From IMG/VR virus record IMGVR_UViG_3300049893_000724, positions 120,460 to 184,459 of that record: DNA of 64,000 nucleotides. One strand, given 5' to 3'. Below are positions 35,604 to 48,271 of this stretch, one piece after another. The translations under genes and the position numbers were made by a program. The notes beneath the pieces were generated by a model. That model was given only the letters and a program-made list of their open reading frames with translations, was not told the DNA's origin and did no database searches. This DNA comes from a virus. Positions within the stretch are counted from its first letter, which is position 1. Every line of letters starts with the position of its first letter.

Positions 35604-35623
35604 TGTGTGTTGGTTCGTCCTTA

Positions 35624-35652
35624 CACTATAGAGACACTTTAAGTGGCTCAGT
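35624..35652 (-). repeat. Intergenic palindromic element, copy 1
   Basis: Core CACTTAAAGTG (35635-35645) flanked by ACTGAGCC on one side and TCTCTATAGT on the other, read leftward. The gene at 35603 starts about 21 bases downstream. See the first finding for the family. Confidence 0.85.
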
Positions 35653-35677
35653 AACACTCACTCAGCAACCCTGGGTG

Positions 35678-35851
35678 TTACCAACGATCAGGACAGCTGA
35701 GATCTTCGACATAAGCTTCGACACGCTCAGCTGGTTCCAATTTGAATAACTTCTCCCAGTCAATCTGATGTGGGTCGAAGTCAGGAAACGCGGAGATGTC
35801 CAGCGTGATTCTATAACGAACCTTCTGTGCTTGTTGATAGGCAACTGACAT
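35678..35851 (-). CDS. 57-residue conserved small protein
   Basis: MSVAYQQAQKVRYRITLDIS, then DPHQIDWEKLFKLEPAERVE. The start is set by a strong AAAGGAG ribosome site about 7 bases upstream; the frame continues further but without ribosome site support. Close relatives occur in cyanophages from memory. It has its own sigma70-type promoter. Confidence 0.82.
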   Translation of the reverse strand: MSVAYQQAQKVRYRITLDISAFPDFDPHQIDWEKLFKLEPAERVEAYVEDLSCPDRW

Positions 35852-35879
35852 AAGTGCGCTCCTTTGGTGTTCTTGAAAT

Positions 35880-35908
35880 AGTCTAAGATACCTGGGAATT
35901 ATTGTCAA
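35880..35908 (-). promoter_or_regulatory. Sigma70-type promoter, leftward
   Basis: TTGACA (35903-35908), 17-base spacer, TAGACT (35880-35885). The start site would be near 35873, giving a 22-base leader with AAAGGAG before the gene at 35851. A GATAAATA late-like box (35921-35928) lies just behind it. Confidence 0.7.
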
Positions 35909-35980
35909 CGTCCTGGGGAGTATTTATCGGCATCGGTGGATTTATGCGGGGGATCTGTGGGGATTTTGTGACGTTGGGGG

Positions 35981-36010
35981 TTGACGGATTTATGGCGGTC
36001 GTGTTATAAT
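35981..36010 (+). promoter_or_regulatory. Orphan plus-strand sigma70-type promoter
   Basis: TTGACG (35981-35986), 18-base spacer, perfect TATAAT (36005-36010). It reads rightward, against every gene in the window. No plus-strand gene follows, so a non-coding or antisense transcript is the likely product. Confidence 0.6.
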
Positions 36011-36201
36011 GCGTTCGCTAAGATCACAAGACTTCAGCACATTAAAAGCACACAAATACACCCACTAATTCTCAACAATACACCTAAATGATTCTCAATT
36101 ACTAACACTTATTGAGAATAAGATAAAACGTTCATTTATATTTTTAATTACATTTTTTAATTGATTTAATACGTTTTTAACCATAAATCAATCAAAAAGC
36201 A
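36011..36201. other. AT-rich intergenic region with two inverted repeats
   Basis: Part of a 380-base stretch without a gene (35852-36230). ATTCTCAAT (36091-36099) pairs with ATTGAGAAT (36111-36119), and ATTGATTTA (36160-36168) pairs with TAAATCAAT (36184-36192). No reading frame is convincing. These stems could end the orphan transcript or form a protein-binding or replication-related site. Confidence 0.5.
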
Positions 36202-36225
36202 TAAAAAAAGGGGGTGTAATCCCCT
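36202..36225 (-). terminator. Rho-independent terminator after the 45-residue gene
   Basis: On the minus strand AGGGG-loop-CCCCT is followed by seven T. It lies 6 bases past the stop of the gene at 36231-36368. Confidence 0.75.
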
Positions 36226-36230
36226 CTGAG

Positions 36231-36368
36231 TTAGTATGTCATAATAGATGCAATCGTACCTGCTCGTATATAGAAATCAACCATTCTTTCTGCTTCATTG
36301 TAGGTATTAAACCCTTGAAACTTCCACCCTTGAGAATAAGGACAGAACCAGCGAATCGTTGTTCTCAT
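36231..36368 (-). CDS. 45-residue small protein
   Basis: MRTTIRWFCPYSQGWKFQGF, then an amphipathic helix (NEAERMVDFYIRAG). Unknown function. It is the last gene of a unit closed by the terminator at 36202-36225. Confidence 0.72.
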   Translation of the reverse strand: MRTTIRWFCPYSQGWKFQGFNTYNEAERMVDFYIRAGTIASIMTY

Positions 36369-36383
36369 TGTGTTAAACTCCTA

Positions 36384-36602
36384 TCAGTTAAGTACACTTT
36401 CCACCATATCATTCACATAGTCTTCATCATAAAAGAGTGAAATCTCTTCGATCAGTTCATCTGGAGTTGAGCAACTTTCACGCAGATTCAGTTCAAGTTG
36501 TTCGCTTGCAAATTGTACCAAACTGTCGAGATCCATACCATCAACAATCTGCTCAATGTAGTTAGCAAGCAGTTTATCGTATTGGTCTTGAGTAAGTTCC
36601 AT
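36384..36602 (-). CDS. 72-residue acidic helical protein
   Basis: MELTQDQYDKLLANYIEQIV, very acidic (about one quarter Asp/Glu), all-helical by eye. It may be a DNA mimic or a regulator, but the sequence gives no specific hint. Spacing to both neighbours is about 15 bases. Confidence 0.76.
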   Translation of the reverse strand: MELTQDQYDKLLANYIEQIVDGMDLDSLVQFASEQLELNLRESCSTPDELIEEISLFYDEDYVNDMVESVLN

Positions 36603-36619
36603 TTTGTTTGTGTAATGTT

Positions 36620-36790
36620 TCAGGAATGAGAGTGAAGAATGTCTAGCATTTGTTGGTGAAACTTGTCTGCCTCACGAACCACATTTGCTGCCTCTGATAC
36701 ATCTTCAATCTCATACTTTGTCATCTCCAGAGAATGAATCACATTAGAGAGAAGGTCAGTCAGTGCCTCAACTTTTTGTGCGTCAGTCAT
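36620..36790 (-). CDS. 56-residue helical protein
   Basis: MTDAQKVEALTDLLSNVIHS, continuous helix with a coiled-coil centre. Two adjacent ATGs exist; the second (36790) is chosen because AAGGAG is 7 bases away, against 4 for the first. Unknown function. Confidence 0.78.
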   Translation of the reverse strand: MTDAQKVEALTDLLSNVIHSLEMTKYEIEDVSEAANVVREADKFHQQMLDILHSHS

Positions 36791-36807
36791 CATCAATCTC
36801 CTTATGT

Positions 36808-37122
36808 TCAGTTCAGACGCATACCAGAGAAGAAAGGAATTGGGGCACCTTGATAGTTAATGAACCACTGGCCTTTCTTCTGAAAGACATACTCATTGTC
36901 ACAGCCATGCACTTTCAAAATAGCATTGAGGCGGGACTTTGTGGTTGCTGATTGATAACCACCATCGAACAATTCAATCCAAGTTTCACCAATGCGGGCA
37001 ATCAGATTACCGTACAGAAACACATCAGAAACATTGGAAAAGTTGATGACTTCAGTATTATCTTTCTTCCAATCTTGTGATGCAGTGATGGCATCATTCA
37101 TTTGCTTTTCGATGACTCGCAT
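36808..37122 (-). CDS. 104-residue alpha/beta small protein
   Basis: The N-terminal helix is followed by beta strands (VFLYGNLIARIGETWIELFDGG) and the end VHGCDNEYVFQKKGQWFINY, which resembles small phage proteins of unknown role. The start follows repeat copy 2 by about 22 bases and has no clear ribosome site. Confidence 0.78.
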   Translation of the reverse strand: MRVIEKQMNDAITASQDWKKDNTEVINFSNVSDVFLYGNLIARIGETWIELFDGGYQSATTKSRLNAILKVHGCDNEYVFQKKGQWFINYQGAPIPFFSGMRLN

Positions 37123-37143
37123 TGTGAGAAGTGTTGTGCTTAT

Positions 37144-37171
37144 ACTACTGGTACACTTTAAGTGGCTCAGT
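37144..37171 (-). repeat. Intergenic palindromic element, copy 2
   Basis: Core at 37154-37164; the -10-like end reads CCAGTAGT rather than CCTATAGT. It is followed by GTATAAGCACAAC, a leader shared with copy 11. Confidence 0.85.
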
Positions 37172-37176
37172 AACTG

Positions 37177-37290
37177 TTACTCAGCAGGTGAGATAATGTC
37201 AGCAACTGTGCGTAAAGTGTTGGCAGTGAGCGATCTTGTAGAAGGTGAAAAGACAAGTGCCATAATGAAAATCAATGCAAGAACTTTCAT
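37177..37290 (-). CDS. 37-residue secreted or membrane peptide
   Basis: MKVLALIFIMALVFSPSTRS is a typical signal peptide or membrane anchor (Lys then 13 hydrophobic residues). Only about 17 residues remain after it. Its stop lies 5 bases before repeat copy 2. Likely envelope acting; function is unknown. Confidence 0.68.
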   Translation of the reverse strand: MKVLALIFIMALVFSPSTRSLTANTLRTVADIISPAE

Positions 37291-37308
37291 CTTCTTTCTT
37301 TTCATTCT

Positions 37309-37470
37309 TCAGAAGTATTGGCGGCAGTATTGTGATTCATTCCACCCGTCACGTTCATAACGTCGGGCATCATAATCATCGGCATCCATTAGATCATCGT
37401 GTTCGCAATCCTCATAATAAGCATCAAACTTTGAGTAGGAATCACCATTGTAAAATGAAGTTGTAGTCAT
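37309..37470 (-). CDS. 53-residue Asp/Tyr-rich protein
   Basis: MTTTSFYNGDSYSKFDAYYE, then many Asp, Tyr and Arg residues (DDLMDADDYDARRYERDGW). Low complexity and probably flexible. Unknown function. Two bases separate it from the upstream gene. Confidence 0.72.
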   Translation of the reverse strand: MTTTSFYNGDSYSKFDAYYEDCEHDDLMDADDYDARRYERDGWNESQYCRQYF

Positions 37471-37472
37471 AG

Positions 37473-37709
37473 TCAAAAAGTATTCAGAACGTGAACAAAA
37501 TCAAGAGAAAAAACACACCAACCAACATAATCTGTCACCTCTTCGACTAATGCTTGAGCGATGGTTTCATCGGTGTCAGTATCATCAACTTCCACCTCGA
37601 AAGTATTACCAATCACAGAATTGATGACTTCTTGTTGTTCATCAACAGTGAAATCTTCATCATCAAAATCAAACAAAACCTCTGTGACTTGCAGTGTTAA
37701 GGTTTTCAT
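37473..37709 (-). CDS. 78-residue acidic protein
   Basis: Starts MKTLTLQVTEVLFDFDDEDF. It is strongly acidic and beta/alpha with VFSLDFVHVL near the end. The ATG at 37709 overlaps the upstream stop (TGATGA); a longer in-frame start six bases upstream is less likely. Confidence 0.76.
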   Translation of the reverse strand: MKTLTLQVTEVLFDFDDEDFTVDEQQEVINSVIGNTFEVEVDDTDTDETIAQALVEEVTDYVGWCVFSLDFVHVLNTF

Positions 37710-37987
37710 CAACATGCACCATAGAAAGGATTACCAAGTTGTGGAAGGTTTGTATTATCGGCAGTCACAAGATAATTGTGTGCTAGACGCTCACGAATTG
37801 CGATTGCTTTCTCTACACGATTCAGATACTTTTTCGACATCTGATCAATACCTTGCCAGGAAAGAACTTGCAAACACCACTCCTTTGAGATGTCACCGTA
37901 AGGTGTTTTGACGGGATAAAATGATACGACCATCGTACCATCTTTAGAGTGAAGTGTAGGAAACTCAGTCATCGTTGAAGTGCTCAT
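37709..37987 (-). CDS. 92-residue small protein after repeat copy 3
   Basis: MSTSTMTEFPTLHSKDGTMV. The second ATG (residue 6, 37972) lies about 20 bases after the repeat, as in other units, and may be the real start. The middle has YGDISKEWCLQVLSW and a helix KYLNRVEKAIAIRERLAHNY. Unknown function. Confidence 0.76.
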   Translation of the reverse strand: MSTSTMTEFPTLHSKDGTMVVSFYPVKTPYGDISKEWCLQVLSWQGIDQMSKKYLNRVEKAIAIRERLAHNYLVTADNTNLPQLGNPFYGAC

Positions 37988-38015
37988 ACTATAGGGACAC
38001 TTTAAGTGGCTCAGT
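37988..38015 (-). repeat. Intergenic palindromic element, copy 3
   Basis: Core at 37998-38008, with TATAGT immediately before the first possible ATG of the 37987 gene. Confidence 0.86.
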
Positions 38016-38024
38016 AACAGTTAC

Positions 38025-38204
38025 TCAAAGACCGTTGATGTACTCTCTGAGTTCAGCATCATACTCCTCTTGAGTGTTAAAAATACGACCGTGAATGTTG
38101 AGAGGAAACTTCTTCTCAACACCAGCAGCTGCAACCATTTGGCAGTCTGCTTCATCGTAACCCATTTCGATGAGGTTCTGAACGTAGGGATTGTAATGTG
38201 TCAT
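38025..38204 (-). CDS. 59-residue small protein
   Basis: MTHYNPYVQNLIEMGYDEAD, UBA-like helical start, then QMVAAAGVEKKFPLNIHGRIF. The ATG directly follows repeat copy 4 with no leader. Unknown function. Confidence 0.76.
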   Translation of the reverse strand: MTHYNPYVQNLIEMGYDEADCQMVAAAGVEKKFPLNIHGRIFNTQEEYDAELREYINGL

Positions 38205-38232
38205 ACTACTGGTACACTTTAAGTGGCTCAGT
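38205..38232 (-). repeat. Intergenic palindromic element, copy 4
   Basis: Core at 38215-38225, -10-like end CAGTAGT. The next gene starts at the ATG that completes TAGTATG. Confidence 0.85.
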
Positions 38233-38375
38233 TACTTAAACGATACGTTGACACCTACAACTTTTGCTGTAGGATTGCGAGCGAGTGCAGTTTCCCGTGC
38301 ATCTTTTGCAGAGTTTGCTTGCACTTCCTCCTTGAAGACTTTGCCACCAACGTATAACTCAACAATGTATTTCAT
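38232..38375 (-). CDS. 47-residue small protein
   Basis: MKYIVELYVGGKVFKEEVQA, then ANSAKDARETALARNPTAKV, a beta-beta-alpha-beta miniature common among phage small proteins. ATGA overlap with the upstream gene. The stop touches repeat copy 4. Confidence 0.78.
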   Translation of the reverse strand: MKYIVELYVGGKVFKEEVQANSAKDARETALARNPTAKVVGVNVSFK

Positions 38376-38572
38376 AGTGTTTGGAATGGTTGGACTTCTT
38401 TGATGTCAGAATTGAAAAACTTTTGAATGATGCTATCAATCACAGGATACCATTGTTCGTTATCACTCGGATAGCCACATTCTCGTGCTTGATTGAGAAA
38501 CTTCAAGATGCAAGTTTCCTCATTTGCAGTGAACTTAACGCGATTGAAAGTGTAACCAGTGTGTTCAGTCAT
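38372..38572 (-). CDS. 66-residue small protein
   Basis: MTEHTGYTFNRVKFTANEET, then CILKFLNQARECGYPSDNEQ. Helical, one Cys pair far apart. Coupled on both sides by ATGA overlaps, so it is clearly translated within this unit. Unknown function. Confidence 0.76.
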   Translation of the reverse strand: MTEHTGYTFNRVKFTANEETCILKFLNQARECGYPSDNEQWYPVIDSIIQKFFNSDIKEVQPFQTL

Positions 38573-38835
38573 TTGTTGTTAAGATTGCGGGAATTGATTT
38601 CTTCTTCGATGAGATCAAACACTTGCGTGTAGATGTAATCATAGTCTTCGACTTCGTTGAGAATATCGAACGCAACTTCACGATCTACAGGTACTTGATC
38701 GCCACCATCTTCGCTCCATACGAATACATCTTCATTGGTGAAGATAAATGCAGCAGCGGGTGCATCTTCTCCCTGTTGTTCGATCAGTCGATTAACACGA
38801 TCACGAAGATGTGCTAGGGTATTGTTGTTTGCCAT
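38569..38835 (-). CDS. 88-residue acidic protein
   Basis: MANNNTLAHLRDRVNRLIEQ, a helix, then APAAAFIFTNEDVFVWSEDG and an acidic helical C-terminus. The pattern is close to small cyanophage proteins I recall without function. ATGA overlap downstream. Confidence 0.78.
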   Translation of the reverse strand: MANNNTLAHLRDRVNRLIEQQGEDAPAAAFIFTNEDVFVWSEDGGDQVPVDREVAFDILNEVEDYDYIYTQVFDLIEEEINSRNLNNK

Positions 38836-38969
38836 CAGATAAACTCTTCGAGGTAGTAATCAAGAGGAAGTCCAAGCTCTGCTGCTTGTTGTTCCCATTC
38901 GGTCCATTCTTCGGGAGAAGCATCATTGAAGAAGTCTTCCCGAGTATAATCAAAAACAGGTCCGCACAT
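38835..38969 (-). CDS. 44-residue protein with DYYLxEF end
   Basis: MCGPVFDYTREDFFNDASPE, then EWEQQAAELGLPLDYYLEEF. The last 16 residues match the pattern of the protein at 47350-47487 (AARLEVPVDYYLAEF), so these look like two members of one short family. Overlaps the next ATG (TGATG). Confidence 0.76.
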   Translation of the reverse strand: MCGPVFDYTREDFFNDASPEEWTEWEQQAAELGLPLDYYLEEFI

Positions 38970-38971
38970 AA

Positions 38972-39115
38972 TCACTTTTTGTTGCGAGGGTTAATGTCAA
39001 TCAGTCGGTCAAGTGCATCACCAAGAGTAGAGCGAACTTGCTCATCTTTCAGTGATACAAACTCATACGCTTCGTAGAGTTTGATGTAAAGATCATCCCA
39101 TTGAGTTTGTGTCAT
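38972..39115 (-). CDS. 47-residue small protein
   Basis: MTQTQWDDLYIKLYEAYEFV, helical, ending RLIDINPRNKK. Two bases separate it from the next gene. Unknown function. Confidence 0.74.
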   Translation of the reverse strand: MTQTQWDDLYIKLYEAYEFVSLKDEQVRSTLGDALDRLIDINPRNKK

Positions 39116-39121
39116 TATCAA

Positions 39122-39370
39122 TCAGGCAGGAAGAATACAAAAGGTGCCACAGAAACGACGAACCCATTGTAGAGTTTCGTGGTAAGATGTGCGGGGGTTG
39201 CTCATCTCCATCGTAGAACCATTCTGAGGATTGTGTGCAACAGCAACATAAAGATTGTCGCACTCTTTATCAGTAATCTGCTCAATCCACATTTGATTGA
39301 CTTTACCTTCCTTCCAATTTGTGTGGTAGGAGTAGACTTCGGAGACGATCATCGGTTGAGTTGCGTTCAT
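39122..39370 (-). CDS. 82-residue small protein after repeat copy 5
   Basis: MNATQPMIVSEVYSYHTNWK. A second ATG (residue 7) has the usual distance to the repeat. The middle DKECDNLYVAVAHNPQNGST and the RTSYHETLQWVRRFCG end suggest a compact alpha/beta fold. Unknown function. Confidence 0.76.
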   Translation of the reverse strand: MNATQPMIVSEVYSYHTNWKEGKVNQMWIEQITDKECDNLYVAVAHNPQNGSTMEMSNPRTSYHETLQWVRRFCGTFCILPA

Positions 39371-39398
39371 ACTACTGGTACACTTTAAGTGGCTCAGT
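39371..39398 (-). repeat. Intergenic palindromic element, copy 5
   Basis: Core at 39381-39391, -10-like end CAGTAGT, directly upstream of the 39370 ATG. Confidence 0.86.
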
Positions 39399-39403
39399 AA
39401 CTG

Positions 39404-39712
39404 TTACCCATTTCTTCCATACCAAGCAAGAAACCCAATAATTGCAGCAACTGGTATAACAATCCACCAGTATTCTACAATCAACCAAATACCAAACACA
39501 ATTGCCGCTAACCATACATAACCCTCAACATCTCCATCAGATGAAGAAGAAGAACTGTTGGACTTTACTTCTCTCAAATTGACGATTTGTTGAACATCTC
39601 CGTGCTTGGCATAGATTTGTTCTTTCGCACCAGAGAATGTTGCAGCTTCAACCTCTGTGTTAATCCTACCGACGCGGGAGTTGACGAATACTTCTGCTCT
39701 CCAAGTTGCCAT
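39404..39712 (-). CDS. 102-residue membrane protein with two spans
   Basis: Starts MATWRAEVFVNSRVGRINTE (ATG 39712, overlapping the upstream stop). A soluble 55-residue beta-rich head with a Ser-rich linker precedes two hydrophobic spans near residues 62-77 (VWLAAIVFGIWLIVEY) and 79-96 (WIVIPVAAIIGFLAWY). Likely inserted in the host membrane; function is unknown. Confidence 0.76.
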   Translation of the reverse strand: MATWRAEVFVNSRVGRINTEVEAATFSGAKEQIYAKHGDVQQIVNLREVKSNSSSSSSDGDVEGYVWLAAIVFGIWLIVEYWWIVIPVAAIIGFLAWYGRNG

Positions 39713-39966
39713 TACCAAGTTCCTCTCTGAATGTGGATTTTGCGGACTTCCTGATACAGAAAATGCCGAAGTTTAGGGTCGGTAGTGTTATCAAAAGCAT
39801 AATACAATCGGTTCAGGTATTCATCTTGTGTCGAACCTATGTTACCATCACCACCAAGGTCATTGAGTGAAGAACCTGCTTTAGCTTTGGCACGTCCAAA
39901 GTTACCAGTGATGTTACCTTGTGTTCTTAGTTTCGGACGGATCTTTGAGAGATTAGAGTAAGTCAT
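39712..39966 (-). CDS. 84-residue small protein
   Basis: A basic Gly-rich N-terminus (MTYSNLSKIRPKLRTQGNIT) is followed by a helical C-terminus (DEYLNRLYYAFDNTTDPKLR). Overlaps both neighbours by 1-4 bases. Unknown function. Confidence 0.76.
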   Translation of the reverse strand: MTYSNLSKIRPKLRTQGNITGNFGRAKAKAGSSLNDLGGDGNIGSTQDEYLNRLYYAFDNTTDPKLRHFLYQEVRKIHIQRGTW

Positions 39967-40190
39967 CGTGCTACAATGTCCAGAGTTTCCATCAACATCA
40001 TCGCAAGTTCAGTCCGATTGTCTTCATCAACCACAGGAATGTTAGTTTCTACAAACTCACTCACAATTTCTTGCAGAAGGTCAGTCATTCGCTGGTCAGC
40101 ATACACATAACCTGCCAATTCATTCTTGAAACCGTCACGCAACAATCGCAGAGATTTTGTTACAGTGCGTTCTTGAGTAGTGTCAGTCAT
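39963..40190 (-). CDS. 75-residue helical protein
   Basis: MTDTTQERTVTKSLRLLRDG, then helices (ADQRMTDLLQEIVSEFVETN). The frame is open further upstream (to 40223) but MTDTTQ is typical of genes here, so 40190 is chosen. Unknown function. Confidence 0.74.
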   Translation of the reverse strand: MTDTTQERTVTKSLRLLRDGFKNELAGYVYADQRMTDLLQEIVSEFVETNIPVVDEDNRTELAMMLMETLDIVAR

Positions 40191-40219
40191 TTGAGGAAAG
40201 ATTTGTGTTTGGAGATACA

Positions 40220-40678
40220 TCAACGAGCGTACAAATAACCACCCGACCAGTCTGCATTTTCCAGCAGGTATTCACGATCAGCAATCAATCGCAGATCATA
40301 GCGTACACCTTGAGCAGGAGCTTTCCAAGAAGCAGACTTATACACTTCACCAGTCTTTTTATCAACGAAGCAGTGAGCAGAGCGACCACCGCCACCATCA
40401 ATAAAGATGACTTTGTGATACTTTTTGCCAGACTCGATGACATAATCAATGTCACACTTGCCAGACTTCAGTTCATCAATCTTGCGCTGATGATACTGTG
40501 ACTGAACCGAATCAGTGTTGTCGTAAGTATAATTGAAGTTCTCAATCGCTCGCTGATGTCCGCGAATCGAATACTGACGATAATTGTCTTTCAGTGCTTC
40601 AATCAGCAGATAGGTATTCTTGAGGACCGAATCTGCAATGATTTGTTGTGCTTGTGCTTGCATAGTAGTGGTGCTCAT
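40220..40678 (-). CDS. 152-residue conserved phage protein, unknown function
   Basis: MSTTTMQAQAQQIIADSVLK. The second ATG at residue 6 is a rival start with the usual distance to the repeat. The C-terminal half has YHKVIFIDGGGGRSAHCFVD, KKTGEVYKSASWKAPAQGVR and YDLR, a conserved beta-hairpin unit seen in many phage proteins. A nucleotide-binding or phosphate loop role is possible (GGGGRS), but unproved. Confidence 0.8.
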   Translation of the reverse strand: MSTTTMQAQAQQIIADSVLKNTYLLIEALKDNYRQYSIRGHQRAIENFNYTYDNTDSVQSQYHQRKIDELKSGKCDIDYVIESGKKYHKVIFIDGGGGRSAHCFVDKKTGEVYKSASWKAPAQGVRYDLRLIADREYLLENADWSGGYLYAR

Positions 40679-40706
40679 ACTATAGGGACACTTTAAGTGG
40701 CTCAGT
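40679..40706 (-). repeat. Intergenic palindromic element, copy 6
   Basis: Core at 40689-40699 with CCCTATAGT. It sits between the ligase-like gene end and the 40678 start. Confidence 0.87.
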
Positions 40707-40711
40707 TACAT

Positions 40712-41623
40712 TCACCAATTCTTTGCTAGGTTAAAATTTGCGCGACTGAATTGATAGCGGTCAACAATCTTGAAAGTGCCATAATTATTGACCATAACAT
40801 AACCTTCGTGATCACTTTGTTGACCATCAATCTCACAAAGGATTTCATCGTCACGCTCAATGAACCAGAACAAATCCATCTTGATTGAATACACCAACTT
40901 CCAAAGCCGAATCAGGTTGACATCACATTCACATTCTGATGCAATGTCATACTCAGCGACCTCATCAATTTGTTCACCCTCGCGGATGTAGCGATTGATA
41001 ACTTTTTTGAGTTCTTTCGCTTGCTTTTCATTCACGAAGTCGCAAAGAGTGCTCATTTGTTTAGCAAACTTGCACACATCTTCAATATCTTCACGATAAG
41101 GAGAGATCTCTGCTTCGGGACGCACAAACTTGCAGTATTTTGTGCTAATCAGATCACCTTCCAATGGATGAGCTTCCATCTCAGGAAGATAGTCTCCAGT
41201 GTAGTAAGTGTGAGGAGCAATGATAATCTCCTCACGCACAATCTCAGGAAACTTGTAAGTAATGGTATTGGGTCGGAATGTATCCAACCCTTTACCAAAA
41301 CCAATCCAATCACCTTGAAACACACCCTCAGTTTTAGGCAGAAACTCAAGGCAATAGATGAGGATTTGAGTTACACGCGGTTGACCACCAAAGTGCTCAA
41401 AAATGTCATCTTCATTATAGCAAAGACGAATCTTTTGCTTGTTAAATGCTGCCTTGGTGCATACAAAAAACTCACCATTTTGAGGATTAGTTCCCCACAC
41501 AATCGCAGGAGCACCATCAATCTTTACACTGATGTTGCTGTCGGTTTCATACATCCAATCCAGCACAGATAGATCCCCAGTGAGGATACAATCTTCGGGA
41601 TGTTCCAGGTGTTTGTTCTGCAT
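40712..41623 (-). CDS. KxDG nucleotidyltransferase (ligase-like) protein, DUF6267-type
   Basis: 303 residues. Motif I is SVKIDGAPAIVWG with the candidate adenylated lysine K34 (K-x-D-G). Mid-protein GVFQGDWIGFG and the late pair HEGYVMVNNYGTFKIVDRYQ (about 272-291) fit motifs IV and V of the DNA/RNA ligase superfamily. This fold joins nucleic acid ends through a lysine-AMP intermediate. Whether the substrate is DNA or RNA cannot be read from sequence. The ATG directly follows repeat copy 7. It follows the methyltransferase and nuclease genes in the transcript. Confidence 0.83.
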   Translation of the reverse strand: MQNKHLEHPEDCILTGDLSVLDWMYETDSNISVKIDGAPAIVWGTNPQNGEFFVCTKAAFNKQKIRLCYNEDDIFEHFGGQPRVTQILIYCLEFLPKTEGVFQGDWIGFGKGLDTFRPNTITYKFPEIVREEIIIAPHTYYTGDYLPEMEAHPLEGDLISTKYCKFVRPEAEISPYREDIEDVCKFAKQMSTLCDFVNEKQAKELKKVINRYIREGEQIDEVAEYDIASECECDVNLIRLWKLVYSIKMDLFWFIERDDEILCEIDGQQSDHEGYVMVNNYGTFKIVDRYQFSRANFNLAKNW

Positions 41624-41651
41624 ACTATAGGGACACTTTAAGTGGCTCAGT
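41624..41651 (-). repeat. Intergenic palindromic element, copy 7
   Basis: Core at 41634-41644 with CCCTATAGT. Its ACTGAG end provides the TGA stop of the methyltransferase gene. Confidence 0.87.
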
Positions 41652-42210
41652 TTTCATCAAGAGGCAGTTTTGCAGCAGAGTTACTCTTTGGTATGATAAG
41701 TTCTTCCATAATGATTTGCTTTGGTAGAAAGTTCCAGCAATAGTAACTAGAACTGAACGTAATCTTGTCGTTTGGTCTACCATCAGGACTATGAAACTTC
41801 ATCCGTTTATCAAACATTAGTAGTTGCAGATCCTTATCCTTAAACAACTGTTTGGGAGCACTATCATTCAACCAGGTGTTAGTCATAATGAGGGCAAATG
41901 GTTTCCCAAAAGATAATGCTCGCTCAAAGAACTTACGTTTGTTGGTGAATGGTGGATTGGATACGATTACATCCCACTCAAAGTCAGGAACATAAGTGAG
42001 AAAATCTTGTCCCGTTGAAATGTGTGTGGAGATGACTAGATTTTGTGCTCCAATCTGCTTGACAAACTCACTCTCTTTGGTATCAAATGGACACCAGACC
42101 TTTGCATCTTTGGGAATGTATTTGAGAATGGGAGTTACACCGTATGCAGGAGTATAGCACTCGTCATTGTTACCCTGCGAGTACATTAGTTTGCCACTAT
42201 CAAGAGTCAT
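41647..42210 (-). CDS. DNA adenine N6-methyltransferase-like protein
   Basis: 187 residues. The key motif is NPPF (85-88, in DVIVSNPPFTNKRKFF), motif IV of N6-adenine methyltransferases. YSQGNNDECYTPAYGV at the N-terminus and AKVWCPFDTKESEFVK (36-51) act as the motif I/X region. It would methylate adenines in DNA using S-adenosylmethionine. ATGA overlap with the candidate nuclease upstream suggests a coupled pair. The C-terminus AAKLPLDEN is shared with the 62-residue protein ending at 42743. Confidence 0.83.
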   Translation of the reverse strand: MTLDSGKLMYSQGNNDECYTPAYGVTPILKYIPKDAKVWCPFDTKESEFVKQIGAQNLVISTHISTGQDFLTYVPDFEWDVIVSNPPFTNKRKFFERALSFGKPFALIMTNTWLNDSAPKQLFKDKDLQLLMFDKRMKFHSPDGRPNDKITFSSSYYCWNFLPKQIIMEELIIPKSNSAAKLPLDEN

Positions 42211-42704
42211 ACAATACGAGTCCCAAATTGTTGGATTTCTTTCTTAGTCAGACTACCAGAGAGACGGGGATCTTTGTGCTTGCCGTGAATCTTACGCTCC
42301 CAATCTTTCTTGAGTTTAGGAAGAAGAATCATCAGCACATCATCACCAGTCAGTTTCCACACTTCCACAACTTTGCCACCTTCATAACGTGCAATGTAGT
42401 GGTTGGAGTATTTACCAAGCTTTTCTTCAATCAGATAACGCTCCTGCTCTTCCCAAGTATCTTGAACACTGATACCATTATACGTCCCATTGATAGAATT
42501 AGCAATGGTAGACTTATACTCACATTCACCCGATTCATCTACAGCATCAGCACCAGAATAGGTTTCTGCTACTTTATGCCCAAGAATACCAGCAAGATGT
42601 ATCTCACGAGAGCGAGCATAACTGAAAGGATCTCCCCAACCTTGTTCATCACAAAGTTGATACATTTCCTCAAACAGTTGTTGAAACCTTTGTTCTGGTG
42701 TCAC
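42207..42704 (-). CDS. Candidate PD-(D/E)XK nuclease (restriction-like)
   Basis: 165 residues, GTG start. A helical N-terminus leads to GADAVDESGECEYKSTIA (51-68). Asp53 or Asp56 with Glu62-Tyr-Lys64 fits the D...ExK catalytic core of restriction-type nucleases. The C-terminus HYIARYEGGKVVEVWKLTGD and KDPRLSGSLTKKEI is typical of phage-coded members I recall. It is fused translationally (ATGA) to the methyltransferase gene, as expected for a restriction-modification pair. The start lies about 16 bases after repeat copy 8. Confidence 0.72.
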   Translation of the reverse strand: MTPEQRFQQLFEEMYQLCDEQGWGDPFSYARSREIHLAGILGHKVAETYSGADAVDESGECEYKSTIANSINGTYNGISVQDTWEEQERYLIEEKLGKYSNHYIARYEGGKVVEVWKLTGDDVLMILLPKLKKDWERKIHGKHKDPRLSGSLTKKEIQQFGTRIV

Positions 42705-42719
42705 GGGTGTTCATTATCT

Positions 42720-42747
42720 ACTAAAGGGACACTTTAAGTGGCTCAGT
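42720..42747 (-). repeat. Intergenic palindromic element, copy 8
   Basis: Core at 42730-42740; the -10-like end is CTTTAGT. It contains the TGA stop of the 62-residue gene. Confidence 0.85.
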
Positions 42748-43458: not shown

Positions 43459-43560
43459 TTTAATAAAAAGCGGTGATCTGGTTGCGGTGGATGGGTTCTA
43501 GGTCGCTTGCAGTAGAATTGCAGAAAAATCAGGTTTTTGGCCTAGTGGCCATCAGGGTTC

Positions 43561-44742
43561 TCACCGCTTGATGACCGACACGGCAGGTTGACCCTGATTG
43601 AAGATAGTATCAACAACTGCCTGCACTTTGCGTGAGGTGCTGATGCCAACCTTGTCATATACAGGCACACAAACCAGACCAAACTTCTTGGTTTCGTCAC
43701 CCAAACGGATCACACGTCCGATAGTCTGAGAGATGCCAATGTAATCCATATTCCGCATAAACAACACCGCTTCCAATCCAGACACATTAATGCCCTCAGA
43801 TAGGATGCTGTGGTGAATGACAACAAATCGCTTGCTGCTATCCTTACCCCAAGCATTGAGGGTATCAAAGAATACCTCACGGTCAACTTTCTTGCCGTCA
43901 ATGACAGCACCAGTCTTGGCAGTAATATACATCCAAGAGTAACCACGTTGCTCTAGTTGAGCACAGAAGTCTGATTGAGAAACAAGACCCACAATCTGTT
44001 TGGTAGAGCGAGCACAAATCAGAATCTTGCTGAGGTTCTGGTCATCAATCGTCTCCATCAGATTGTCAGCGTCACGCTCAAAGATCATCTGCCGATCTTG
44101 AACCATAGGCAGTTGCTTCACGACAACTTTAGGAGGCAAAATGTATCCACCATCAACCAACTCAGGAGCAGGAACTTGGCAGATTACCTGACCATAAACC
44201 TCAGGGAGGTTCATCCCAGGTTTAGAAATAGTGGTAGAATGTTTGGGAGTTGCAGTGAAGAAGTAGCAACGGTTAGCATTAGCACTGAAGTGCTCAGTTG
44301 CAGGGAAAAAGTGACGCTGAACGCTGTTATGTGCCTCATCAAAGTAGATCGTATCCACATCAATCTCAGCATCAACCAGACGCTGCAAAGAGTTGTACGT
44401 GGTGAAGATCAACTGATGACGATTAGCAGCGGCACACATACCTGCGTGAACAACAATGTCGGCAGGTTTGGTAGTGCTAACGTGATGAGTTTCGCCACTG
44501 TGAACGTGCAGAACTTCAGCGTTGGTGATGTGCTCCAGAAACTCAGAAGAGAGTTGCTCAGCAAGCAGAATACGGGGAGCAACAACTACAACAGTCTGCG
44601 GAGTTTCAGACTGAAACTGACGCATTGTATCATAGATCATCTTCAGCGTTTTACCGCCACCAGTAGGAACAATCACTTGGCCCTTGCTGTGCTTCTGCAT
44701 CGCAGCAATAGCACGGGATTGATGAGGACGAAGAGTAATCAT
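43561..44742 (-). CDS. SF2 helicase (ResIII/UvsW-like)
   Basis: 393 residues. Q-like LRPHQ (4-8), Walker A PTGGGKT (26-32), VVVAPRILL motif Ia, DEAH (135-138), TATP (163-166) and QTIGRVIR (motif VI, about 338-345) give a full superfamily 2 helicase. At this length it is shorter than T4 UvsW (503) and lacks an evident N-terminal extra domain. Roles include branch migration, recombination or the motor of a restriction-like system. A sigma70-type promoter is embedded in the hairpin just upstream. Confidence 0.88.
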   Translation of the reverse strand: MITLRPHQSRAIAAMQKHSKGQVIVPTGGGKTLKMIYDTMRQFQSETPQTVVVVAPRILLAEQLSSEFLEHITNAEVLHVHSGETHHVSTTKPADIVVHAGMCAAANRHQLIFTTYNSLQRLVDAEIDVDTIYFDEAHNSVQRHFFPATEHFSANANRCYFFTATPKHSTTISKPGMNLPEVYGQVICQVPAPELVDGGYILPPKVVVKQLPMVQDRQMIFERDADNLMETIDDQNLSKILICARSTKQIVGLVSQSDFCAQLEQRGYSWMYITAKTGAVIDGKKVDREVFFDTLNAWGKDSSKRFVVIHHSILSEGINVSGLEAVLFMRNMDYIGISQTIGRVIRLGDETKKFGLVCVPVYDKVGISTSRKVQAVVDTIFNQGQPAVSVIKR

Positions 44743-44783
44743 TACAAATTACAGTGTTTCAGGTGGTTTGGTATCTAAAAGAC

Positions 44784-44819
44784 ATTATAGCACCCTTCTA
44801 GGCGATTGTGAAGGGTGCT
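44784..44819 (-). promoter_or_regulatory. Promoter embedded in a hairpin upstream of the helicase
   Basis: A 10-base inverted repeat (AGCACCCTTC/GAAGGGTGCT, 44789-44819) contains TTCACA (44807-44812), 17-base spacer, TATAAT (44784-44789), read leftward. The helicase start is about 35 bases beyond the predicted start site. The stem may also end the preceding transcript, though its U tract is weak. Confidence 0.7.
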
Positions 44820-44834
44820 GATGATGTATCTGTA

Positions 44835-44859
44835 ACTAGAACACTTTGAGTGGCTCAGT
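44835..44859 (-). repeat. Intergenic palindromic element, copy 9 (degenerate)
   Basis: Core CACTCAAAGTG (44842-44852) has one mismatch and three bases are missing before the -10-like end. It sits between the basic-protein gene end and the helicase hairpin and no longer lies next to a start codon. Confidence 0.72.
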
Positions 44860-45464
44860 TAATCTTTGCCGCCTTCGTCACCTGTTCCAGTGTACTTGTG
44901 CTTTAATTGACTTTCTTTCTTCTTACCAGTTGCTTTCAACACAATGTCGCGTAGAGTTCTTCTACCTGCTCTCTTGAGTTGTCTCTTTTCTGCTCTGGTG
45001 TATTCACCTTTTACAGTTTTAACTTGCTTTTGGCGTTGTGGTGCTTCTTTCTTTTTCTTAAGAAGTTGTGATGCCGCTGATGTTAATTCTTTTTCTTTAG
45101 GTTTAGCAGCAGTTGCAGATGCGCCTGTTTTCTTTGCAGCAGCTCTTGCTCTTGCTGCTGCTACTCTTTCTGCTTTTGCTGCTGCTAATTGTTTCTCTCT
45201 TGCAGACCCACGCTCTTGTTCTGGTTGCTGAACTCTTGTTTCTGCTTTACGCTGAGTTCCAATATCTTTGCGTGGTTTGTATTCTTTGGCAGGAACAGTT
45301 TGTCCCCCACCTACTCTCTTTGTCCTGCGTCTTTCAGGAGCAGTTTTCTTACGCTCAGCTCCAACTCTTCCACCATCACCAACGCGACGGATTTGAGATG
45401 AACCCATAACACTAGCGTCATAGGCTGCTTCAGCAATCAAAACAAACTCCTGAAAGGTTTTCAT
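44859..45464 (-). CDS. Histone-like internal head protein with capsid-targeting sequence
   Basis: 201 residues, over 30% Lys/Arg with Ala-rich runs (ERVAAARARAAAKKTGASA). The N-terminus MKTFQEFVLIAEAAYDAS is nearly the T4 capsid targeting sequence (MKTYQEFIxEA) used by IPI-III and Alt. The gp21 protease cuts after (L/I)xE; IAE at residues 10-12 is a ready site, leaving a basic product. The inferred role is DNA condensation inside the head or ejection into the host. It has a CTAAATA late-like box upstream (45488-45494). Confidence 0.82.
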   Translation of the reverse strand: MKTFQEFVLIAEAAYDASVMGSSQIRRVGDGGRVGAERKKTAPERRRTKRVGGGQTVPAKEYKPRKDIGTQRKAETRVQQPEQERGSAREKQLAAAKAERVAAARARAAAKKTGASATAAKPKEKELTSAASQLLKKKKEAPQRQKQVKTVKGEYTRAEKRQLKRAGRRTLRDIVLKATGKKKESQLKHKYTGTGDEGGKD

Positions 45465-45487
45465 CAGTATCTAAACACTCTTTTTAG

Positions 45488-45494
45488 TATTTAG
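45488..45494 (-). promoter_or_regulatory. Late-like promoter box for the histone-like gene
   Basis: CTAAATA on the minus strand, 24 bases before the ATG at 45464. It overlaps the end of the upstream gene. Confidence 0.5.
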
Positions 45495-45691
45495 AACTCC
45501 TCCTCCTTTGCTTTATACGAACCCTTGAACACACGTCCCTCAGCATACAGTTGGCGGACACGTTCGCGGCGAGTAGCAATCAACAAATCGTATTGAGATT
45601 GTTGTTCCTTCGTGAACACAAAGTCTTGTTTCCGCCACGCATCTTTCAGTTCATTGATGTGAGGCAGCACATTAGCAATAGTTTCAGTCAT
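45491..45691 (-). CDS. 66-residue helical protein
   Basis: MTETIANVLPHINELKDAWR, then KEQQSQYDLLIATRRERVRQ. The ATG 4 bases after the upstream stop is chosen; the frame extends upstream without support. Helical throughout. I remember relatives in cyanophages; no function known. Confidence 0.78.
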   Translation of the reverse strand: MTETIANVLPHINELKDAWRKQDFVFTKEQQSQYDLLIATRRERVRQLYAEGRVFKGSYKAKEEEF

Positions 45692-45695
45692 TGAA

Positions 45696-45833
45696 TCAAA
45701 AATCAAAGTTGGAGTTAAGGAAAGCGTTGAAAGATTTGTCGTTATCCTCTTCCTCAAAGAGGGGTTCATTCATTTCCTCAACAAAGTCAAAGGAAGAAAA
45801 CTCTTCAATTTGCAGATCGTCGAAGCAGTCCAT
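45696..45833 (-). CDS. 45-residue acidic Phe-rich protein
   Basis: MDCFDDLQIEEFSSFDFVEE, then EPLFEEEDNDKSFNAFLNSN. Very acidic with Phe, a possible DNA mimic or binding peptide. The start follows repeat copy 10 by about 19 bases; the longer in-frame start would be inside the repeat. Confidence 0.7.
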   Translation of the reverse strand: MDCFDDLQIEEFSSFDFVEEMNEPLFEEEDNDKSFNAFLNSNFDF

Positions 45834-45851
45834 AATTTGTTTGTTGCTTAC

Positions 45852-45879
45852 ACTATTGAAACACTTTAAGTGGCTCAGT
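45852..45879 (-). repeat. Intergenic palindromic element, copy 10
   Basis: Core at 45862-45872, -10-like end TCAATAGT followed by GTAAGCAACAAAC before the ATG at 45833. Confidence 0.85.
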
Positions 45880-45884
45880 TTCAA

Positions 45885-46076
45885 TCAACGGGACAGAATT
45901 GCTTTCATATTAGCACGCTTCGCTGCCTGTTGTGCTCTTGCTTCAGCACCTAACTCCTGGTGAACGTGCTTAATATGTGCAGTCTTTTGTGTTGCTTGGC
46001 GCTTAGCAACTTGTTGACTGTAGTAGTTTGGCTCCATATGTGGAGATTGTTCCATAAATTGCTGAAACGTCTTCAT
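45885..46076 (-). CDS. 63-residue basic protein with capsid-targeting-like N-terminus
   Basis: MKTFQQFMEQSPHMEPNYYS matches the capsid-targeting pattern in its first ten residues. The remainder is basic and His/Gln-rich (QVAKRQATQKTAHIKHVHQE). Together with the histone-like protein and the 51-residue one it forms a set of three. A clear late box (46096-46103) lies 19 bases upstream. Confidence 0.76.
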   Translation of the reverse strand: MKTFQQFMEQSPHMEPNYYSQQVAKRQATQKTAHIKHVHQELGAEARAQQAAKRANMKAILSR

Positions 46077-46306
46077 TTTACCAACACTTTTTCATTATTT
46101 ATTGTTGGGACATCATTCCAATGTCTTATGACCCCCGCACAAATGAAAAGATTAGTAATGAGATAAGTGAGAAATATAAAGATCCGTATATAAGCAATGT
46201 TGTCTGCTTCTCTGTCATTTTTACCTGCTTTTTCTCCTAATGCTTTAGCAACTAATCGGAACGCAGTTTCCTTCTTCTTCGTACACCGATTCTCTGGTTT
46301 TGACAT
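46073..46306 (-). CDS. 77-residue single-span membrane protein
   Basis: A basic N-terminal half (KKKETAFRLVAKALGEKAGK) is followed by one hydrophobic span near residues 42-60 (IFIFLTYLITNLFICAGVI). The first 62 bases overlap the upstream gene in another frame, longer than is usual here; no later ATG exists. Unknown function. Confidence 0.65.
   Translation of the reverse strand: MSKPENRCTKKKETAFRLVAKALGEKAGKNDREADNIAYIRIFIFLTYLITNLFICAGVIRHWNDVPTINNEKVLVK
46096..46103 (-). promoter_or_regulatory. T4-like late promoter box
   Basis: AATAAATA on the minus strand, 19 bases before the ATG of the capsid-targeted 63-residue protein. Confidence 0.55.
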
Positions 46307-46514
46307 ACTCTAACTCACACCACTGTTCTGAATAACAAACCACAAGCAATCGGTCATTCCGATGTATTGAACACGCTTTATAGTTAGTCTTATCTTTAGG
46401 ACGCACCAATTCTTCAATTGTAATATACTCTTTATCTTTGAAATAAACCCAACCCTCAACACCTTTTCCGTTATTCCACTTCACATAGTCATTGACTTTG
46501 GGTTCGTAGGTCAT
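46245..46514 (-). CDS. 89-residue beta-rich protein
   Basis: MTYEPKVNDYVKWNNGKGVE, then GWVYFKDKEYITIEELVRPK and LLVVCYSEQWCELEYVKTRE. A small SH3-like barrel is plausible. I remember related cyanophage proteins. Four-base ATGA overlap with the upstream gene. Confidence 0.78.
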   Translation of the reverse strand: MTYEPKVNDYVKWNNGKGVEGWVYFKDKEYITIEELVRPKDKTNYKACSIHRNDRLLVVCYSEQWCELEYVKTRESVYEEEGNCVPISC

Positions 46515-46810
46515 ACAAATGCACTTTCCAGGGGTGTTTGTTTGATAGGCATTGCTGTGTAGTTTCGAGTATTCTTAAACTCCACAACTTTACCAACTTC
46601 CTTACTATTTACAGGACTATAGAACTCACACTTTTTGTAGGAATAGAATCCCCAGATGGTGCGGGTCGGTTTTCCCAAATTGTAATCAAACCTGCGGTCA
46701 CAACGCAACCAAATAGAAAACACATTACGTTTGAACTCTTCAACTTCATAGGAATAACCTTTGGGTGGTTTATGCGTAAACTGAGGAATTAAATCAACAG
46801 AGAGTTTCAT
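46511..46810 (-). CDS. 99-residue conserved small protein
   Basis: MKLSVDLIPQFTHKPPKGYS, then EEFKRNVFSIWLRCDRRFDY and TIWGFYSYKKCEFYSPVNSK. Beta-rich with conserved aromatics. The ATG at 46810 overlaps the upstream stop (TGATG); an earlier in-frame start six bases upstream is not preferred. Confidence 0.78.
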   Translation of the reverse strand: MKLSVDLIPQFTHKPPKGYSYEVEEFKRNVFSIWLRCDRRFDYNLGKPTRTIWGFYSYKKCEFYSPVNSKEVGKVVEFKNTRNYTAMPIKQTPLESAFV

Positions 46811-46947
46811 CAACAATCGTAGAACTTTTCTTGAGTGAGAAGTTTAATCATTTCCTGAAGTTGCAGGATTTCCTGTTGCTGTTCTGTAATCTTTTGTTGT
46901 AGTTCTGTAATGCGTCCTTGATACTGTTCTTTTAATTCACCAACCAT
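46810..46947 (-). CDS. 45-residue coiled-coil protein with start codon inside a palindrome
   Basis: MVGELKEQYQGRITELQQKI, then TEQQQEILQLQEMIKLLTQE, a continuous heptad coiled coil, so it probably forms a dimer. Its ATG is the centre of a 20-base perfect palindrome. It overlaps the next gene by one base. Confidence 0.75.
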   Translation of the reverse strand: MVGELKEQYQGRITELQQKITEQQQEILQLQEMIKLLTQEKFYDC

Positions 46948-46957
46948 ATGGTTGGTG
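46938..46957. promoter_or_regulatory. 20-base perfect palindrome over a start codon
   Basis: CACCAACCATATGGTTGGTG is its own reverse complement, with the ATG of the 45-residue gene at its centre. It could be an operator for a dimeric protein or, in mRNA, a stem hiding the start codon. Confidence 0.7.
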
Positions 46958-46973
46958 TGAGATACATTTTGTG

Positions 46974-47216
46974 TCACGTCGTAAAACTCTCAACAACTTC
47001 AGAATCTACATTTTCAGCAAGAGCAAATGTCACAGCATTAAGAATGTTTTCCTTCAAATCACTGTAGTATTTCTCATAGAAATTACCATCATCTTCAGCA
47101 GAAATCAAATCAAAACATTCATCATCATCCTCTGCAATGACATTCCAAACTCCACCATATTCTGATGCAGGAAAAGGAACATAGTGTTGAACGATGTAAA
47201 GAAACTTTTGTGCCAT
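46974..47216 (-). CDS. 80-residue acidic protein
   Basis: MAQKFLYIVQHYVPFPASEY, then GGVWNVIAEDDDECFDLISA, ending DSEVVESFTT. A compact acidic alpha/beta protein. Unknown function. Confidence 0.76.
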   Translation of the reverse strand: MAQKFLYIVQHYVPFPASEYGGVWNVIAEDDDECFDLISAEDDGNFYEKYYSDLKENILNAVTFALAENVDSEVVESFTT

Positions 47217-47236
47217 TGTTGTTTGTAGATTACCTC

Positions 47237-47350
47237 TTAATTGTAGTAGTTTTTGTCGCCTTCGTCAAGGTTGTTTCGGTCAGCCGCAAATATAAATGCT
47301 GCACCGATTGTGAGTAGAGAACCAAGACCCATTCCAAGTAGAAAAGTCAT
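47237..47350 (-). CDS. 37-residue membrane peptide
   Basis: MTFLLGMGLGSLLTIGAAFI is a Gly-rich span, followed by an acidic tail (RNNLDEGDKNYYN). Overlaps the upstream stop (TGATG). First of four small membrane proteins in this stretch. Confidence 0.72.
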   Translation of the reverse strand: MTFLLGMGLGSLLTIGAAFIFAADRNNLDEGDKNYYN

Positions 47351-47487
47351 CAATAAAACTCCGCAAGATAATAATCAACAGGAACTTCTAAACGTGCTGC
47401 TTCACGCTCAACTTCTTTCCAAAACTCTTCTGCTGCTTTATTCATCTCTGCTTTTTTGATGAGGTCTTGGATGCGTTTTGGAATCAT
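47350..47487 (-). CDS. 45-residue protein with DYYLxEF end
   Basis: MIPKRIQDLIKKAEMNKAAE, then EREAARLEVPVDYYLAEFY. Shares the PxDYYLxEF ending with the protein at 38835-38969. The ATG falls inside the gene at 47438-47572, in another frame. Confidence 0.76.
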   Translation of the reverse strand: MIPKRIQDLIKKAEMNKAAEEFWKEVEREAARLEVPVDYYLAEFY

Positions 47488-47572
47488 TTTCGTCTAGGTA
47501 ATCGAAGTGTTTAGAGAATAGAACTGTAAAAAACCAAGCAAATGCTGCTGAGATGATGAGAAAGTAAATCAC
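47438..47572 (-). CDS. 44-residue single-span membrane protein (GTG start)
   Basis: MIYFLIISAAFAWFFTVLFS is a clear span, followed by a charged tail KHFDYLDENDSKTHPRPHQK. The GTG overlaps the upstream stop (GTGA). The last 50 bases overlap the next gene. Confidence 0.68.
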   Translation of the reverse strand: MIYFLIISAAFAWFFTVLFSKHFDYLDENDSKTHPRPHQKSRDE

Positions 47573-47703
47573 CTTTGATTTACTATCGCCTGCTGACGAT
47601 AGTACGCTTTATAGAGTTTTTCATCACGTTGGATTAGAAATACATTCCATCCAATCATTGCAATGAAACCAAGAGCGAAAGTGATGACATACTTACGGTT
47701 CAT
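47569..47703 (-). CDS. 44-residue single-span membrane protein
   Basis: MNRKYVITFALGFIAMIGWN, one span, then a basic tail (KLYKAYYRQQAIVNQR). Type II-like topology by the basic start. ATGA and GTGA overlaps on both sides show tight coupling. Confidence 0.73.
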   Translation of the reverse strand: MNRKYVITFALGFIAMIGWNVFLIQRDEKLYKAYYRQQAIVNQR

Positions 47704-47822
47704 TTTTCAGTCTCAACAGTTGTCTTCAGAAGTTCATAATCTTGTTTTTTGTTGTAGATATTCATAACAAGATCCACAACACAATAACCAAAGGCAAATC
47801 CTGCCATAATTGAAGTAATCAT
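47700..47822 (-). CDS. 40-residue membrane peptide
   Basis: MITSIMAGFAFGYCVVDLVM forms one span, then NIYNKKQDYELLKTTVETEK. It overlaps the upstream gene by 4 bases (ATGA) and the next by 4. Unknown function. Confidence 0.72.
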   Translation of the reverse strand: MITSIMAGFAFGYCVVDLVMNIYNKKQDYELLKTTVETEK

Positions 47823-48226
47823 ACTGCTAGTGCTCCGTTAGGGATTTCAACGATTTCGGGGAGTTTCTCCTCAAAGGTATTCATATCATAGCACACCCAT
47901 TCACCACTGCGGAAGACATAGGCATACTCTTCACCTTCACGAAGATACTCACAGAGGTCAGCATCAAGGCGAGGAGGGCAATCATCACCGCGATAAGAAT
48001 AATAGTTAGGACCATAAACACCTTTCTTACCACTATCATCCCAACGCTCATCAGTCCAGGCACAGGACACATCACCACCATCAATCAGTTCTTCAGCAAG
48101 AGATTTGGTGTTGTAGTGAGTAGTCAGAATACGACCCAACCATTCGGGATAACCATCCCAGTGGTGATACACGGAAAGAATAGAACCGTCTTTGAGTTCA
48201 AGACCAATTCGTGAGCGAGTTGCCAT
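47819..48226 (-). CDS. 135-residue conserved phage protein, unknown function
   Basis: MATRSRIGLELKDGSILSVY, then HHWDGYPEWLGRILTTHYNT and GPNYYSYRGDDCPPRLDADL, ending with VCYDMNTFEEKLPEI. This is a widespread phage family with a strict HHWDGYPEWLG motif; its function is not known to me. The start follows repeat copy 11 by about 18 bases. Confidence 0.86.
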   Translation of the reverse strand: MATRSRIGLELKDGSILSVYHHWDGYPEWLGRILTTHYNTKSLAEELIDGGDVSCAWTDERWDDSGKKGVYGPNYYSYRGDDCPPRLDADLCEYLREGEEYAYVFRSGEWVCYDMNTFEEKLPEIVEIPNGALAV

Positions 48227-48243
48227 CAGAGAGTTGTGCTTAT

Positions 48244-48271
48244 ACTACAGGGACACTTTAAGTGGCTCAGT
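48244..48271 (-). repeat. Intergenic palindromic element, copy 11
   Basis: Core at 48254-48264, -10-like end CCTGTAGT, then ATAAGCACAAC before the ATG at 48226. It is the rightmost full copy. Confidence 0.86.

Follow-up and report, generated by a model that had tools for sequence, protein, structure and literature searches.

The 64,000-nt stretch of DNA analyzed here (the window) is part of the virus contig IMGVR_UViG_3300049893_000724, which is 184,459 bp in full, and it carries eleven copies of a short intergenic element that, judging from its sequence and that of its relatives, is very probably a promoter. We hold with moderate confidence a fuller model, in which the element would be a cyanophage early promoter unlike those of the sigma70 type, with RNA starting at an invariant purine to give leaderless or leadered mRNAs and with the participation of a phage-specific factor. 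The contig represents a T4-like phage of marine Synechococcus (its UvsW shares 71% identity with the S-SKS1 protein, and every match was to a cyanophage or marine virus). Small early genes clustered about uvsW make up the element-bearing stretch, which in relatives is adjoined by the gp25/gp6 baseplate genes.

An initial annotation of the window had described eleven copies, all reading leftward with the genes, and a core unchanged in ten, and both statements were verified in the contig. All 11 copies lie on the minus strand, co-oriented with the genes, and CACTTAAAGTG is exact in 10 of them, the exception being CACTCAAAGTG at 44842. Searching the full contig with ACTGAGCCACTTAAAGTGT at up to 3 mismatches returned 11 matches, all minus, compared with 0 for a reversed-pattern control, and there were no further copies outside the early-gene cluster. 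The TATAGT of the initial annotation proved to be variable, as many copies carry CAGTAGT or TGTAGT instead, and the steadier string is TAGTRT.

The element belongs to a large family. A 17-base part of it, used as a query, matched 21 IMG/VR stretches, most of them with multiple copies, and a core-pattern search reached at least 118 stretches. The profile set comprised 493 distinct copies at up to 3 mismatches, where shuffled sequence gave 4, and a set enlarged with later loci held 945 copies at up to 3 mismatches and 1,033 at 4 mismatches. The search of cyanophage genomes for the motif that the initial annotation had proposed has in this way been run, with about 1,000 related copies found in other cyanophage contigs. 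These come from viruses of marine Synechococcus and Prochlorococcus at hundreds of sites; in S-B43, elements were found by blastn. Across copies the shared core is C-N4-AAAGTGTCCCTATAGT-RTRAGCAC. With the T of TAAAG numbered as position 0, the near-invariant positions are C-4, A1-A3, G6, T7, T13, A14, G15, T16, a purine at 17 (R17) and T18. By this comparison, the element family is real, widespread and functional. Two diverged forms were also seen: S-B05 (locus L182, 10000-50000) has about ten copies of AGAATTACTCACCTC-NAAANGTCCNCTATAGTGTAACCAC, with a constant upstream block and an altered core center, and the Prochlorococcus phage P-TIM68 (locus L230, 17160-26061) has at least 13 copies of TTAGTTACCTC followed by TAAATTGACATATTAATGTAAT.

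What varies between phages is the sequence immediately upstream. At the equivalent place SynMITS9220M01 has TTACTCACCTC followed by TAAAGTGTCCCTATAGTATGAGCA and S-SM2 has GGGGGGTCGCC followed by TAAAGCGTCCCTATAGTATGAGCAC, each with the same 3′ part and another 5′ part. This variable part is a block of 8-10 bp just 5′ of the core, ACTGAGCC in the present phage, which we refer to as a bar code. Among 70 contigs with at least 4 copies each, identity across the block (-11 to -5) was 0.96 within contigs vs 0.38 between them, compared with 0.89 and 0.84 for the core. Because the core is more variable than the block within a genome, copying of whole elements from one copy to another is not the explanation. 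A block that stays the same throughout one phage but changes from phage to phage is expected of the site of a phage-specific protein, and we consider it likely that a trans-acting factor, differing between phages, reads it. The regulator-dependent phage promoter of the initial annotation is therefore retained as a promoter class, for which the block pattern makes a phage factor very likely, while its operator reading and its geometry are not. The CACTT-A-AAGTG palindrome on which the operator was based is limited to the lineage of the present phage and is not kept in relatives: the left arm varies by lineage, and the arm pairs show no covariation (mutual information at most 0.045 bits). As the arms are neither conserved nor covarying, we dropped both a hairpin and a palindromic operator.

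The same block pattern bears on a different explanation, that the element is a recombination cassette in which gene conversion homogenizes the repeats and genes are shuffled, any promoter function being incidental. T4-type phages have small intergenic promoter-bearing cassettes termed PeSLs (Arbiol 2010; Comeau 2014; cited in PMC4503421), and the likeness includes their repetition in hyperplastic regions. The identical block carried by every copy within a genome, the setting among small variable genes and the terminators adjoining some copies all fit such a cassette. However, a block more uniform than the adjoining core is not expected from whole-copy conversion, no more than a few per cent of copies have a terminator next to them (35/1033), and the element, unlike PeSLs, has neither a built-in stem-loop terminator nor a sigma70 early promoter. 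We regard this explanation as very improbable.

The position of start codons bears on where transcription would begin. Positions 17-19 are coupled, reading ATG in 199 copies, GTA in 192, ATA in 62 and GTG in 15, such that about 40% of copies have an embedded ATG. Of these 199 ATGs, 182 (91%) begin an ORF of 40 codons or more, compared with about 40% for GTA/ATA copies, in which the gene start instead lies 15-35 bases later and almost never 1-14. A second ATG within 33 bases of the embedded one shares its reading frame in 110 of 119 cases. The initial annotation had the start codon touching the element at 38204 and 41623, which holds for both, but the window has five such copies in all, the others being at 40678, 39370 and 37987. 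The embedded ATG is the sole start of gene 40712-41623, encoding a DUF6267 protein (T4-GC71), in the copy at 41616..41651, and the sole start of gene 38025-38204 in the copy at 38197..38232. It is followed by an in-frame ATG 15 nt later in the copy at 40671..40706 (gene 40220-40678), and also occurs in the copies at 39363..39398 (gene 39122-39370) and 37980..38015 (gene 37709-37987). The Pfam model for DUF6267 begins at residue 3 of the 40712-41623 product, and DUF6267/GC71 homologues that lack the element (S-RIM2, P-SSM7, ACG-2014f, Bellamy) start at the same residue or within two, which fixes the start codon inside the element. On this comparative evidence the embedded ATG is the true start codon. 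Many embedded-ATG genes, 40220-40678 for example, carry an in-frame fusion that adds an N-terminal MSTT(x) peptide before the ancestral methionine.

Several of the remaining copies illustrate the leadered form. The one at 48236..48271 consists of block ACTGAGCCACT, core and tail ATAAGCAC, with the ATG of gene 47819-48226 lying 17 nt past R17, and the one at 45844..45879 is of the GTGTAAGCA form, with an ATG 18 nt past R17. The copy at 42712..42747 (TTTAGTAGATAATG) precedes gene 42207-42704, which has a GTG start 15 nt past position 17, and that at 37136..37171 (again the ATAAGCAC form) is followed 21 nt later by the ATG of gene 36808-37122, Kyano_Gp96. The copy at 35617..35652 is of the GTAAGGAC form, and the copy at 44824..44859, which is degenerate downstream (CACTCAAAGTGTTCTAGTTACAG), precedes uvsW (43561..44742, minus strand), which encodes a UvsW-like helicase and is the landmark of the cluster. 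Between the latter copy and uvsW we read a host-like sigma70 promoter (TTCACA-N17-TATAAT) at 44784..44812 on the minus strand. S-SM2 and SynMITS9220M01 have a similar layout of degenerate element and then good host-like promoter, as if an early and a middle promoter were stacked.

Terminators narrow the region in which RNA could start. In several bar-code lineages (loci L366, L237, L139, L104, L106, L325, L281 and L257), GC71 genes are preceded by a strong intrinsic terminator of about -10 to -21 kcal/mol, with 10-20 nt between its end and the core, and in these terminator-preceded genes the embedded ATG is homologous residue 1. With a terminator just upstream of the element, RNA must begin between the terminator and the ATG. 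In P-TIM68 most of the 13 copies have an out-of-frame ATG at positions 15-17, often running straight into TAA, suggesting an RNA start beyond position 15. Overall, elements show no enrichment of terminators upstream (14/483 vs 63/2700 controls), and so only the individual terminator cases carry weight. In-frame second ATGs alone cannot separate a start at R17 from one at position 25, since read-through transcripts also select frame; copies with only an embedded ATG and a terminator upstream do separate them. From the start codons, the terminator cases and P-TIM68 together we think it probable that R17 is +1 and that the mRNA is leaderless in the ATG form.

The initial annotation had instead taken TATAGT as a -10 with RNA starting 5-9 bases later. 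In its general form, this reading is a sigma70-type promoter with -10 TATAGT or TAGTRT, a MotA-like activator box substituting for the -35 and an RNA start near position 25. Such a start would lie 3′ of the true start codon in about 40% of copies, several of them right after terminators. The RNA would then lack a start codon in embedded-ATG copies that have no second start, and some embedded-ATG genes are alone between two elements (41623, 38204). The relaxed cyanobacterial -10 is TANNNT, and several features of the element nevertheless weigh against a start at R17. T13-A14-N3-T18 fits TANNNT and is retained in the S-B05 and P-TIM68 forms, and the bar-code block occupies the place of a -35, which together favor a start near 25. 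The sequence from position 24 on is G-poor and leader-like, and the distance from TANNNT to the ATG in leadered copies resembles that of ordinary cyanophage promoters. This clash with the start-codon evidence is the main tension in our data, and for this reason we keep the sigma70 geometry as a rival, although we consider it unlikely. TAAAGT as a sigma70 -10 was rejected, as it is broken in the S-B05 form (NAAANG).

Another possibility is an element acting in RNA. Long transcripts would pass through it, and it would signal either processing or the initiation of translation, being cut or read at R17. The location between tightly packed co-directional genes, the embedded ATG and the constant 3′ part are all compatible with this. 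However, strong terminators lie directly upstream with nothing else before the gene, there is neither covariation nor a hairpin, and orthologous genes in other cyanophages have ordinary promoters at the same place. We find an RNA-level element quite improbable and continue to favor a promoter starting at R17.

T4 middle promoters, whose logic the initial annotation had invoked, are among the closest known systems. The T4 MotA box is TGCTTtA, located 12+/-1 bp before a -10 TAtaaT (PMC2988021), and T4-like cyanophages are reported to lack middle promoters of the T4 kind as well as motA and/or asiA (PMC5780444). Like T4 middle promoters, the element has a box peculiar to the phage that precedes an AT-rich sequence, is present in multiple copies and lies in the prereplicative gene region. 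It does not match the MotA box, however, as its block is ACTGAGCC here and another sequence in other lineages, and its RNA would probably start at or before R17, 5′ of the start derived from TATAGT, whereas T4 middle transcripts start 6-8 nt after the -10. Searches for MotA and AsiA, each positive for T4, found neither in the contig, S-SM2, SynMITS9220M01, S-B05 or P-TIM68, which counts against both the T4 middle-promoter machinery and the activator-dependent sigma70 reading.

A promoter for a single-subunit RNA polymerase of the T7/SP6 type would account for compact contiguous conservation that ends just past the presumed start, and CTTAAAGTGTCCCTATAG agrees at 13/18 positions with what we take to be the SP6 promoter, ATTTAGGTGACACTATAG. 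PF00940 had no match in the contig, S-SM2 or SynMITS9220M01, with P-SSP7 positive as a control, and this idea is largely refuted.

A second class of early repeat occurs in related phages. In Syn9 it consists of GTGTCCAC/GTGGCACA about 35 bp before GTGTATTCTATAAGAGTC. Its copies in locus L030 (46339, 47254, 48608) and locus L031 (1050, 3046) have AGTGTCCAC or GTGGCACA, about 35 bp, GTGTATTCTATAAGAGTC and then a gene start, and boxes like the upstream one of this repeat are present in S-PM2, S-H35, S-T4 and S-SKS1. Doron et al. 2016 reportedly described an early element in Syn9-type cyanophages, and we assume that the Syn9 repeat is possibly this same element. Both classes are repeated upstream of early genes in T4-like cyanophages, but the Syn9-type element differs in sequence and layout, its -10 and leader being of the ordinary kind. 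Neither Syn9 nor any of 12 other Kyanoviridae genomes had a match to the present core. Since orthologous genes follow one class in some phages and the other class in others, replacement of one promoter class by the other has taken place several times. A literature search that reached few subscription papers found no description of the present promoter class.

In the mechanism that we propose, the transcription machinery would contact the core at C-4, AAA at 1-3, GTGTCCCTATAGT at 4-16, the purine at 17 and then TRAGCAC, and RNA would start at R17. With ATG at 17-19 the mRNA would be leaderless and translated from its first base, while GTA or ATA would produce a 15-35-nt leader. A trans-acting factor with phage-to-phage specificity would read the 8-10 bp upstream block. 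Given that the core has no sigma70 -10 correctly spaced for a start at R17, and that searches found no MotA, AsiA or T7-type polymerase, we infer that host RNA polymerase together with a phage-supplied factor would carry out transcription.

Our leading candidate for all or part of that factor is a very basic protein of 201 aa encoded at 44859..45464 on the minus strand. Three ORFs of the contig are common to all four element-bearing genomes compared and missing from four element-free ones. Two of the three, 46974-47216 and 38025-38204, were rejected because other phages without the element have them as well. The third encodes the basic protein, which in a search of 50,697 phage records matched only S-SM2, SynMITS9220M01, S-B05, RB11-B, RN05-S, AG-345-O18, AG-345-E15 and P-TIM68. 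P-TIM68 had no match to the core pattern at first, and it was the protein match that prompted the de novo reading in which its diverged element was found. For S-B43, despite its elements, the protein search had no match at the chosen threshold. Of the 80 IMG/VR loci retrieved through the protein, 79 contained at least 2 elements, L283 being the sole one in which no element was found. Around uvsW, protein and element occurred together in 29 cases, neither in 23, the protein alone in 0 and the element alone in 2, both short fragments. On a UvsW tree the element state changes at least 9 times, 5 of these forced by well-supported branches, and 4-5 of 5 independent pairs were concordant with none opposite (p = 0.0625).

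The protein is 27% K+R, and its N-terminus, MKTFQEFVLIAE/A, fits a T4-like capsid-targeting sequence (CTS) with an L/I-X-E cleavage motif. The motif is present in 6 of 7 homologues, S9220M01 having V-N-E, and only 2 ORFs in the contig have such an N-terminus. T4 internal proteins carry an N-terminal CTS with an L/I-X-E cleavage site (PMC9026906), and T4 Alt is an injected head protein able to alter promoter choice (PMC9026906, PMC2988021). The basic protein shares the CTS type and L/I-X-E site but shows no sequence relation to Alt, and its packaging and injection are predictions. Several points count against this candidate: shared ancestry could partly explain the link between gene and element, no DNA-binding fold could be recognized in the protein, and its alignment has no obvious variable recognition surface. 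We hypothesize, tentatively, that the basic protein is the factor reading the element. Still more speculative is a virion-delivered switch, in which the protein, delivered with the DNA, would direct host RNA polymerase to the phage's own bar-coded promoters, with transcription starting on the start codon.

Other features of the window include two adjacent minus-strand genes, 42207-42704 and 41647-42210, with weak likeness, below the Pfam cut-off, to a PvuII-type restriction endonuclease and an adenine methyltransferase, respectively. Together (41647-42704) they resemble a restriction-modification pair behind one element. Downstream of the early cluster, minus-strand ORFs of 2484 and 3996 aa (8677-16131 and 17709-29699) probably encode virion proteins, as in relatives. 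An Rfam scan of the window gave 0 matches, and no tRNA was found.

Our analysis bears on how T4-like cyanophages, which have no MotA or AsiA, take control of transcription in hosts that are among the most abundant bacteria of the ocean. It contributes a defined element, a base-exact predicted RNA start, a phage-specific block and one candidate gene, with S-SM2, SynMITS9220M01, S-B05 and P-TIM68 as cultured carriers. The design suggests why ordinary promoter predictors would overlook such early genes, and promoters with a constant core joined to a variable block would naturally form a set whose members are orthogonal to one another. If the virion-delivered switch is true, each phage would activate only its own early genes, through leaderless mRNAs and immediately after DNA entry, and bar code and factor would co-evolve and diversify between competing phages.

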